From Candidatus Calescibacterium sp. (GTDB lineage: Bacteria > Calescibacteriota > Calescibacteriia > Calescibacteriales > Calescibacteriaceae): DNA of 19,626 nucleotides. The position numbers and the translations under genes were made by a program. The DNA is taken from assembly GCA_025060505.1 (NCBI GenBank), contig JANXBU010000024.1, forward strand, positions 1 through 19,626, read 5' to 3'. The stretch's first letter is position 1, and each line of letters begins with the position of its first letter. Under the pieces are notes generated by a model. That model searched no databases. It was not told the origin of the DNA and saw only the letters and a program-made list of their open reading frames with translations. Positions 1 through 7,598 of the stretch are shown here, in pieces.

Positions 1-690
1 GGAACGGAGTTGATTTTACATGTAGATTTTCAGACAAAGAATGATCCGGATATGCCAAAAAGGATGCTGAGGTATTTTTATGTTGTAATTTCAAGATACA
101 ATCTTCCAGTGAAGCAGGTCGTAATATATTTGGGTAAGGAAGAACTCAGGATAAGCAACCGTATAGAGATGAGAGCAGATGGGACATTGTGTATGAGGAT
201 GAGATAATAGATCTAAAGGAGGTAGAGGCAGAGAGATTTTTGGAATCAGATAATCCGGATGTATATTTGCTTGGGATACTTGGAAAGACTCAGAACATAT
301 CGGAAGTTGTGAGAAAGATAGTTCAGAAGCTCAGAGAAAGTTTTGAGAGAAGGGAGATAACCAAACACGATATTTTAGAAATATATAAATAGGTTAGGAG
401 TATTTGGTGAGCTCAGAGATATAAGAGAAGATTTGAGGAAGTAGGTAGAAAAAACAGTGATAGATATAGACATAACCAAAACTTGGCTCTACCAAGAAGG
501 ACTGGAGAAAGGTATGAAAGAAGGTATGAAGAAAGGGTTAAAGGAAGCTTTACTCTTTGCCATACAGGTTAAGTTTGGCAGAACTCCTACATCAATCAAG
601 AAGGAGATAATGGGGATAGAAGATTTAGATAAACTTAGGCTCTTGAAGAAGGAGCTACTGAAGACAAAAACCCTGAAAGAATTTGAAAAA
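1..690 (+). pseudogene. Rpn-family PD-(D/E)XK nuclease/'transposase' gene, 5'-partial and decayed
   Basis: The reading frame enters from the left edge and matches the middle and C-terminal parts of the Rpn (recombination-promoting nuclease, formerly transposase_31) family. The conserved stretch LHVDFQTKNDPDMPKRM follows the usual 'LHxEFQ..nDp.mp.RM' pattern, with Asp where the family normally has the catalytic Glu of E-x-Q. The protein is broken three times. Frame 1 is lost near 165-190 and continues in frame 3 (DIVYEDEIIDLKEVEAE). Frame 3 stops at 390-392 while the homology returns to frame 1 (LGVFGELRDIREDLRK). A TAG then follows at 442-444 before the C-terminal part with its typical KGxxEGxKKG charged helix (about 505-545). 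Homology fades near 690 with no stop of its own; the frame then runs antisense into the xer gene. The family is known for RecA-independent recombination. This copy cannot make an intact protein. Confidence 0.8.
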
Positions 691-742
691 AACTCAAATC
701 TCCGAACAACTGATGCCAAGATTTCCTTCGCTATACCTTCCC

Positions 743-1597
743 CTATTCTTCTGACTCCCTTGGATGAACCTTTTTGTATATTGATACGATCTCGTTTATG
801 TTTGTATGAACATACTTTTGTGTTGTGTTTATTGAGGAGTGCCCGAGAAGTTCCTGAATTACTCTTATATCTGCTTGATTTTTCAGAAGGTGTGTTGCGT
901 ATGAATGTCTCAGAAGATGTGGCCACACATTCTTACCCGTTTTCAAAAATCCTTGTCTCTTTACTATCTTTCTTATGTATCTTGAAGAAAGTTTTTTCCC
1001 GTATTTGTTCAAAAGCAAATAACCGTCGTCCTCATCTCTCAAATACTTTGGTCTGATGTTTTTTATGTAAAAATCAATTTCTTCTCTGACATATGTAGGT
1101 ATTGGAACAGATCTCCATTTTCCACCCTTACCATATATTTTCAGAAAATCCCCCGAGATATTTTCTAACTTCAGATTCTCAAGCTCAGAAACTCTGAGTC
1201 CGCACCCATACAAAATCAAGATCGCCAACCTATCTCTTTCCTTATCTGTATCTGTTAGATCAAGAGCCTCGTCTTCATCAAGATATGAAGGTATCCTGGT
1301 TTTCCTCTTTCTGAAAGGAACAAGCTCTGCTGGATTATATTTCACATAGCCTCTTTCCTCCAAAAATCTGAAAAAAGATTTTATTGAAGAAAGTTTCCTT
1401 TCAATTGTTGAATCTTCTTTTCCCTCCTCAGAAAGATACCTTATGTATTTCTCTATATCTTTGAAATCTACTTTATCTAAATCTTTTGAAATGAAACCGG
1501 AAAACTCTTCAAGATCTTTCATATAAGCCCGAAGTGTGTTTGCTGAAAAATTTTTGGACTCAAGAAAAGAAATGAATTCCAAAATGTACTGTGACAC
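743..1597 (-). CDS. xer: XerC/XerD-type tyrosine recombinase
   Basis: This is a site-specific recombinase of the Xer type, of 284 residues (XerC and XerD are about 300), expected to resolve chromosome dimers at dif. An N-terminal core-binding (SAM-like) domain covers about residues 1-90. The catalytic domain shows every active-site residue: Arg135 in GCGLRVSEL, Lys157 in GKGGK, His227 and Arg230 in HLLRH, His253 in LGH and nucleophile Tyr262 in QKYVH. The start is GTG at 1595-1597. There is no Shine-Dalgarno; a TATAAT lies exactly six bases before the GTG, so the transcript may be leaderless. XerC and XerD cannot be told apart here, and the organism may use a single Xer. The 3' end abuts the decayed Rpn gene, which points the other way. 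No integrase-like arm-binding domain is seen, so a phage integrase is unlikely. Confidence 0.93.
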   Translation of the reverse strand: MSQYILEFISFLESKNFSANTLRAYMKDLEEFSGFISKDLDKVDFKDIEKYIRYLSEEGKEDSTIERKLSSIKSFFRFLEERGYVKYNPAELVPFRKRKTRIPSYLDEDEALDLTDTDKERDRLAILILYGCGLRVSELENLKLENISGDFLKIYGKGGKWRSVPIPTYVREEIDFYIKNIRPKYLRDEDDGYLLLNKYGKKLSSRYIRKIVKRQGFLKTGKNVWPHLLRHSYATHLLKNQADIRVIQELLGHSSINTTQKYVHTNINEIVSIYKKVHPRESEE

Positions 1598-5801: not shown

Positions 5802-6620
5802 TCAAGATTCTTTGAAGAATAAAATATAAACATCATCCGGAGATGTGAGATTGTATTTGAAAACTTTTCCCTTAATATCCGGATCTGTTGGAAGAGATAT
5901 TTTTATCCTCCTTCCCAATCTCTCCATTTTGGCAACAACATTACCCATAACTATATTCATAAACTCCTTAACTGCATCTCTTTTTAGCTCCTGCGATTCT
6001 GGAAGTCCATACTCCTTCAATAACATATCAGCAAACTTTTCCGGCGGAGAGAAAACAACTTTTATGTTCACATCACCCGACACCTCAATTTGTGTATCAT
6101 AATTATTTCTTTTCTGGAATTCTTCAAAAGAAAAATCTCCAAATTTTGTATTGACATCAACAGTTCTGAGTAAGAATTTTTTCGCAAGATCCACCACAAT
6201 ATTTATTATATCTCTATCTTTTACACCTTCTGGTAAAAATACCGTTTCGGTCATGTATATTCTCTGCTCTGTTTCGAAAAATTTCAGTTCCCTTTCAAGA
6301 ACATCTCTCGTTATAAAACCCTTTTCAACTAGAATATCTCCGAGCAGCTTGTGAGAGCTTTTCTGAATTGTAATTATTCTCTCAACTTGCTCCTGTGTGA
6401 GATATCCAAGCTTTGTAGCAGCTTCACCGAATTTGAGCTCTTCTCTCTTTTGTAGCTTCCTTATTTCTTCGACCTGCGCTGGAGTAAGGTAGCCCAGTCT
6501 TATAGCATGTTCTCCCAATTTAAGATTAACTTTCTTCTGCTCCTCTATAGCTTCCAGAAGTTGTTCACGGGTTATAACCTTTCTTTCAACAAGAAAAGTT
6601 CCAAAGAATTTCACTCCCAT
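5802..6620 (-). CDS. MshEN-like repeat protein with C-terminal CheX phosphatase domain
   Basis: This 272-residue protein has two parts. Residues 5-115 are four repeats of one pattern, 'xxG..lv..g.iT.eQle..i..Q', with the key glycines at 7, 36, 65 and 94, an exact 29-residue period. This resembles the paired motifs of MshEN (GspE N-terminal) domains, some of which bind cyclic di-GMP. The conserved Arg of the canonical RLG is Phe, Lys, Lys or Leu here, so binding is uncertain. Residues 120-272 look like CheX: the catalytic ExxN is Glu219-Phe-Met-Asn222, followed by GNVVAKM and the ISLPT strand. CheX dephosphorylates CheY-P. A strong GGGAGG ribosome site precedes ATG 6620. The gene begins 13 bp after the receiver gene, so the pair is an operon and the receiver is the obvious substrate. 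No membrane segment is seen. Confidence 0.75.
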   Translation of the reverse strand: MGVKFFGTFLVERKVITREQLLEAIEEQKKVNLKLGEHAIRLGYLTPAQVEEIRKLQKREELKFGEAATKLGYLTQEQVERIITIQKSSHKLLGDILVEKGFITRDVLERELKFFETEQRIYMTETVFLPEGVKDRDIINIVVDLAKKFLLRTVDVNTKFGDFSFEEFQKRNNYDTQIEVSGDVNIKVVFSPPEKFADMLLKEYGLPESQELKRDAVKEFMNIVMGNVVAKMERLGRRIKISLPTDPDIKGKVFKYNLTSPDDVYILFFKES

Positions 6621-6633
6621 ACCCTAAACCTCC

Positions 6634-7002
6634 CTACATTTGTTCTATTATTCTTTTTATGTCTTTTTCATCAAACGGTTTAGATATTATAGCTTTTGCT
6701 CCCGATCTCATCGCTTCCTCTGCTTTCTCCGCAGCACCTCCTAATGAAGATATCATAACAACCTTGGCACTTTTATCCATACTCAGTATTGTTTTGAGTG
6801 TTTGCAGACCATCCATGTTGGGCATTAGTATATCGAGAAAAACAATATCAGGAGTAAGCTTTCTGTATAATTTCACACCCTCCATACCATCTTTAGCATG
6901 GGCTAAAACCTCTGCCATCCCGGTCTTTTCAACAATTGCCTTCAATTGCTCAAATGTAAAGACACTATCATCTATAATGAGAACCCTTTTTTTAGATTCC
7001 AT
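6634..7002 (-). CDS. CheY-like single-domain response regulator
   Basis: This is a stand-alone receiver domain with no output domain, like CheY. The acidic pocket and switch residues are intact (numbered from a TTG one codon upstream): Asp12 and Asp13 in LIIDDS, phospho-acceptor Asp58 in VFLDILMP, Ser86 in MISSLGG and Lys109 in ISKPF. I prefer the ATG at 7000-7002 over the upstream TTG at 7003-7005, because a strong AAGGAGG (complement of 7011-7017) sits eight bases before it. It is the first gene of a two-gene unit with the CheX-domain protein, which probably removes its phosphate. No histidine kinase lies in the window, so the input and the target (flagellar motor, pilus or other) are unknown. 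Confidence 0.9.
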   Translation of the reverse strand: MESKKRVLIIDDSVFTFEQLKAIVEKTGMAEVLAHAKDGMEGVKLYRKLTPDIVFLDILMPNMDGLQTLKTILSMDKSAKVVMISSLGGAAEKAEEAMRSGAKAIISKPFDEKDIKRIIEQM

Positions 7003-7010
7003 CAAACATA

Positions 7011-7017
7011 CCTCCTT
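7011..7017 (-). promoter_or_regulatory. Strong Shine-Dalgarno of the receiver gene
   Basis: AAGGAGG on the minus strand lies eight bases before ATG 7002. It decides the start in favour of the ATG over the TTG just upstream. Such a strong site is exceptional in this window, where most genes have none. Confidence 0.75.
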
Positions 7018-7084
7018 CTAATAAATGCTGATAAATAACATACAAAATATAATACAAATATAAGCAATTTTGTATTTTTTTTCG

Positions 7085-7409: not shown

Positions 7410-7598
7410 TCATAACTTGGTTAGCTCCTTCCGTATGTTCTCTAACTTCACGCTACTCACATACTCTCCAAACCATCGCTTGAAAGAGGAAAAGAAAATC
7501 TCCACGTGCCAATGCCTTCCATAACCCTTTCTCCATTTCTTTTTGCCCTTTCTGATTGCCCTTACCACCTCATCCCTTGCACCGTTGCCAGTAATCAC
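7410..7598 (-). pseudogene. C-terminal fragment of an IS4/IS5-type DDE transposase
   Basis: The 62 codons contain the hallmark of the third catalytic motif: a Trp-rich segment WRKGYGRHWHVE, followed by IFFSSFKRWFGEYV. The Glu of HWHVE would be the last residue of the DDE triad, and 'E..FS..KR.FGE' is typical of IS5-like and related IS4-superfamily enzymes. The usual 200 or more residues before it, with both catalytic Asp residues, are missing, and an in-frame stop precedes the segment directly. Its base composition is visibly richer in G and C than its surroundings, consistent with a transferred element. It lies within the inverted-repeat-bounded remnant. Confidence 0.7.

Follow-up and report, generated by a model that had tools for sequence, protein, structure and literature searches.

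The window, by which we mean the whole stretch of 19,626 nucleotides analysed here, carries two adjacent genes on its reverse strand. The first (6634..7002, reverse strand) encodes a stand-alone CheY-like receiver of 122 residues, counted from its ATG (PF00072, 88.7 bits), and the second (5802..6620, reverse strand) encodes a protein of 272 residues in which four MshEN-like repeats stand before a CheX domain, as assigned from matches to NF053729 and PF13690 and from an AlphaFold2 model. The initial annotation had placed this protein in one operon with an intact receiver, and both reading frames and the receiver active site were confirmed. D11, D12, D57, S86, and K108 are all in place, in agreement with the pattern DD, D, S or T, and K, and these residues are 99–100% conserved across 77 paired receivers.

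Each gene has a Shine–Dalgarno site 7 nt before its ATG. That of the receiver gene, GAAGGAGGT (7010..7018, reverse strand), gives an anti-SD duplex of −12.8 kcal/mol, and that of the repeat-CheX gene, TAGGGAGGT (6628..6636, reverse strand), which overlaps the stop codon of the receiver gene, gives −11.7 kcal/mol. Fifteen gene starts of the window were scored, and at the other 13 the duplex is never better than −2.9 kcal/mol. The earlier statement that this is the only operon with strong ribosome sites is thus right for the window (two of 15 gene starts), but the feature is not unique in the genome, where a few other genes carry such sites.

No RNA family was found in the window. Upstream of the receiver gene, positions 7410–7550 (reverse strand) appear to hold a remnant of the C-terminus of an IS transposase, near short repeated tgtgtcca strings; the assignment comes from a weak Pfam match to DDE_Tnp_1 (17.7 bits, below the cut-off), with one stop replaced in the stretch that was read. 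An ORF at 457–1056 (forward strand; start MIDIDITKTWLYQEGLEKGMKEGMKKGLKEAL), which overlaps the recombinase gene, looks by eye like Rpn/DUF4351-type proteins; stops are present in frame upstream of it, and a Pfam search gave no match.

Repeats and CheX domain of the 272-residue protein

In residues 1–118, the best lag for self-similarity is, by a wide margin, 29 residues (score 103, z = 8.2, against 5000 shuffles with a mean of −69, a standard deviation of 21, and a maximum of 4), and the four 29-residue repeats previously described, with glycines at 7, 36, 65, and 94, are all present. Repeat 1 (residues 2–30; 6531..6617) has FFG in place of RLG and is seen as a helix pair in the model. For repeats 2 (residues 31–59; 6444..6530), 3 (residues 60–88; 6357..6443), and 4 (residues 89–117; 6270..6356), the self-similarity at lag 29 is joined by conservation and by the model; they carry KLG with Q57, KFG with Q86, and LLG with F115 replacing the Gln, respectively. 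All four repeats are encoded on the reverse strand.

The proposed resemblance of the repeats to MshEN is borne out by both profile and predicted fold. The NCBIfam model NF053729, ‘c-di-GMP_motif, MshE-related’, is matched at 92.5 bits against a cut-off of 38 (E = 1e-26), and it is matched in 52 of 52 relatives. The Pfam MshEN model PF05157 gave no match at E ≤ 1 for the 272-residue protein. The AlphaFold2 model, a single chain predicted from 52 aligned natural sequences, has a mean pLDDT of 92.4. In it, the central repeats 2 and 3 (residues 32–89; 6354..6527, reverse strand) take the fold of the MshEN N-subdomain and superpose on c-di-GMP-bound MshE (5htl_B) with Z = 12.0 and an rmsd of 1.2 Å over 58 residues, and on PilF GSPII-B with Z = 10.9, values to be read with the caution that helical bundles can score a high Z in VIA-align through their common arrangement. 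The assignment to the MshE/PilF fold draws also on independent sequence profiles, which match the repeats to PilF at 7e-19 and to MshE (5htl) at 9.5e-9. When repeats 1 and 2 were excised and folded alone, the model was poor (pLDDT 73.8) and its match to MshE weak (Z = 3.4). Repeats 1 and 2 were dropped as a separate module for this reason, and since they did not take the MshE shape alone, repeats 2 and 3 are the likelier ligand module.

The C-terminal half is a CheX domain with an intact ExxN motif, as the initial annotation had it. Pfam CheX (PF13690) matches residues 177–245 at 32.7 bits, above the cut-off of 27, and it matches 51 of 52 relatives at E ≤ 0.001. Residues 134–272 (5805..6221, reverse strand) superpose on 1squ_A with Z = 16.3 and an rmsd of 2.7 over 139 residues, and on the CheX of the CheX–CheY complex 3hzh with Z = 14.2; profile matches of this half to structures reach 6e-11 for 1xko and 1e-10 for 3hzh. 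The phosphatase motif E219-F-M-N222 (5955..5966, reverse strand) aligns with the ExxN of the solved CheX proteins, and in 78 sequences the Glu and the Asn are each 99% conserved.

The CheX phosphatases of Thermotoga maritima and Borrelia burgdorferi (1squ, 1xko, 3hzh) share with the window protein the fold of residues 134–272, the single ExxN, and a CheY-like receiver as partner. However, the solved proteins that were matched are single-domain proteins of 145–172 residues, whereas in the window protein CheX follows an arm of four repeats, and in the repeat-CheX family the receiver is an operon partner or is fused. The MshE N-terminal domain and PilF GSPII (5htl, 8pdk) are alike in their 29-residue helix-pair repeats, in the conserved Gly and Gln, and in the superposition of repeats 2 and 3. 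The window protein differs from them in having four repeats in a row without the C-terminal GSPII subdomain, Lys, Phe, or Leu in place of Arg, and His or Arg in place of one pocket Leu, and its repeats are joined to a phosphatase rather than an ATPase. CheC–CheD (2f9z) is likewise a regulated CheC-type phosphatase, but the regulator there is the protein CheD, whereas the window protein has a covalently attached, possibly ligand-binding domain.

The combination of domains has been seen before. Wang et al. (2016) list CheX, in one sentence, among the domains associated with MshEN (PMC5013675), and the main text of that paper has the same two kinds of domain in one protein, without receiver pairing, function, or assay. 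A search of open-licence papers found no functional study of an MshEN-CheX protein, although others may exist. Thus, of the possibility that the architecture is already common and characterised, the first part holds, since it is common and in print, while a functional characterisation was not found. The pairing of the domains is already known; the near-obligate receiver partner, in the loci examined, was not found described.

Relatives, the adjacent receiver, and the flagellar setting

Candidatus Calescibacterium, of the Calescibacterota, with which named relatives among the GTDB contigs group the window, belongs to a thermal-spring lineage for which flagellar genes have been reported (PMC4791363). 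The receiver and repeat-CheX operon is present in all five Calescibacterota genomes examined, and the proteins of the four relatives are 72–75% identical to that of the window. A profile search of 386 genomes gave 11 more full-length proteins outside the Calescibacterota family. A scan of GTDB contigs with a single sequence gave no relatives, and a diverse alignment had no stretch conserved enough for a search pattern, but a closer set of sequences succeeded. One pattern around FFG yielded 91 relatives, mostly from Geobacterales and Desulfuromonadales, with some from Nitrospirota, Myxococcota, and Auribacterota; the best 80 of the 91 were retained. The 100% conservation of residues 2–10 is partly by construction, because the scan pattern was centred on FFG; F5, F6, and G7 are also kept in 14 of 14 sequences of a pattern-free set, for which whole profiles or whole proteins had served as queries. 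The tree places the window family on a long branch of its own, outside the Geobacter group. The arrangement of repeat-CheX protein and receiver is real and widespread, and it is no local oddity.

Divergent repeat-CheX proteins occur in two genomes of one family (L083, 680–1582, and L089, 3909–4838), with the receiver not adjacent; upstream of the one in L083 is a 139-residue ORF that resembles, by eye, an anti-sigma-type ATPase.

The receiver gene lies directly upstream of the repeat-CheX gene, on the same strand, in 76 of the best 80 GTDB loci, with a median gap near 37 nt. In the four others (L152, L166, L168, and L170) the match begins no more than about 500 bases into the locus, so near its start that absence of a receiver is not established. 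Of the 11 proteins from the profile search, seven are encoded beside a receiver gene, which lies upstream in five cases and downstream in two, and two are fusions; of the remaining two, one locus is cut by a contig end (L079), and in the other (L080, in genome G192) the 8.9 kb that were read contain no receiver, which makes it, to that extent, a true exception. In the fusions (L081, 3884–5191, and L082, 3967–5262), a single polypeptide has the order receiver, MshEN-like repeats, CheX; their genomes are without FlhA and have one CheA match each. Further conserved operon genes were searched for, and none recurs. The pairwise distances of the receivers and of their repeat-CheX partners are correlated with r = 0.91, a value that shared descent alone could give. 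The near-obligate pairing, the natural fusions, the lack of any other conserved gene, the conserved active site, and the correlated distances together make the adjacent receiver the likely substrate of CheX, and we hold it very probable that CheX acts on its paired receiver. With the operon kept across several phyla and with the fusions of receiver, repeats, and CheX, the functional tie is much stronger than it appeared from the window alone.

FlhA is encoded in the genome of the window, together with two CheA and four CheW-domain matches, which would fit an ordinary flagellar CheY–CheX chemotaxis pair in which the repeats have no regulatory part. Such a pair would also agree with the position of the operon next to flhA in two relatives, and with the repeat-CheX protein being the only CheX/CheC match in each of five Calescibacterota genomes, although further CheX/CheC genes could be missed in these assemblies, which are 82–86% complete. 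Yet every relative used has retained the repeats, and the window operon lies outside any che cluster, its receiver being one of about six stand-alone receivers in the genome. CheA was found in 16 of 17 repeat-CheX genomes; in the two CheA regions read in the window's genome, CheA has no receiver gene as its neighbour. Outside the family, FlhA is present in eight of 12 genomes that carry a repeat-CheX protein and was not found in the other four (G153, G241, G291, and G369), which are 94–96% complete. Since the module occurs in these near-complete genomes, the flagellum cannot be its output in every case, and a strictly flagellar role was not adopted. An ordinary chemotaxis pair is, in our judgment, quite unlikely.

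Candidate ligands of the repeats and a possible mechanism

What might the repeats bind? At the position of the Arg in RLG (−2), the four repeats have F5, K34, K63, and L92, so it was correct that they lack the canonical Arg. The further step, that they may bind another ligand or a protein instead, is weakened by PilF GSPII-B, which binds tightly with Lys and Leu. In the central pair of repeats, Lys takes the place of the Arg that in MshE stacks on guanine. GSPII-B, with its Lys and Leu, binds c-di-GMP at 6 nM, and its K167R change makes binding 25-fold weaker (PMC11731258). Thus, Lys in place of Arg does not exclude c-di-GMP. No repeat in any of the 78 sequences has the strict 24-residue motif RLGxx...Q, and the relaxed motif occurs in repeat 3 of 57 of the 78 and almost never in repeats 1, 2, and 4. 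With the extended motif (R/K/L)LG...Q (PMC11731258), repeats 2 and 3 have the Lys, Gly, and Gln twice, and F64 and R54 deviate. R54 is the equivalent of MshE Leu29, a position at which 82% of the family have His. All 17 repeat-CheX genomes checked encode GGDEF domains, so the messenger c-di-GMP is probably available to the hosts.

The repeats may no longer bind nucleotide and may serve instead as a docking arm of a constitutive phosphatase, which would hold the receiver or bring CheX to a partner such as a type IV pilus ATPase or a further MshEN protein. The absence of the strict motif everywhere, the degeneracy of repeats 1 and 4, and the His or Arg at the Leu29 equivalent would agree with this, and there is a precedent in PilF GSPII-A, in which the fold is good, the deviations are few, and binding is abolished (PMC12002112). 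A non-flagellar partner is possible, given the four high-quality genomes that lack FlhA. However, G36, G65, Q57, and Q86, which are ligand contacts in MshE and PilF, are 100% conserved, and the central pair superposes closely on the ligand-bound structure; we consider a docking arm unlikely. With the conserved Gly and Gln and the PilF precedent on one side, and the missing strict motif, the Leu29 change, and GSPII-A on the other, the binding of a cyclic dinucleotide by the repeats appears little better than an even prospect.

The nucleotide could be a different one, such as 3',3'-cGAMP, held in an asymmetric pocket. Geobacterales and their relatives make cGAMP, and most carriers of the repeat-CheX protein are Geobacterales or kin. 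The half-sites of repeats 2 and 3 differ, one being all hydrophobic and the other having the conserved His or Arg at 54, and MshEN binds cGAMP weakly (PMC5013675). The His or Arg at 54 could equally be structural, and we regard cGAMP or a similar ligand as improbable.

We suggest a two-gene module in which a repeat-CheX phosphatase tuned by a ligand acts on its paired receiver. The receiver would be phosphorylated by a partner kinase encoded elsewhere, not beside the receiver gene, and the CheX-type phosphatase would insert its ExxN into the receiver active site and strip the phosphate. The N-terminal repeats would be a helical sensor arm, with repeats 2 and 3 predicted to have the fold of the MshE-type c-di-GMP module. 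There, the binding of a cyclic dinucleotide, c-di-GMP being the likeliest, would change CheX activity or dimer geometry, so that the level of the second messenger would set the lifetime of the phosphorylated receiver, lengthening or shortening it. That ligand binding controls the phosphatase is plausible and falls just short of an even chance, and the proposal as a whole is put forward equally tentatively.

More tentatively still, the module may be a portable device of two genes that is found in several phyla and in which dephosphorylation of the receiver is gated directly by a cyclic dinucleotide in the asymmetric pocket; the ligand might be c-di-GMP, or else the His/Arg half-site might read a hybrid such as cGAMP. 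If true, second-messenger and two-component signalling would be joined in one protein. The phosphatase and its likely substrate are maintained together in Geobacterales, Nitrospirota, Myxococcota, Auribacterota, and Calescibacterota, and with a cyclic-dinucleotide-type sensor of its own such a phosphatase would tie the messenger directly to phosphorylation. Because the module is small and apparently soluble, the link is testable in vitro with two purified proteins.

Two other observations concern MshEN-like sequences. In L088 (3499–4344) and L090 (3920–4750), what looks by eye like a J-domain, with an HPD motif, is followed by MshEN-like repeats. An ORF of the size of a pilus ATPase in the window's genome (L200) carries the MshEN motif in its strict form, RLGEILIKMGVINHVILAKALSAQ, and this genome may thus also encode a classical c-di-GMP receptor.
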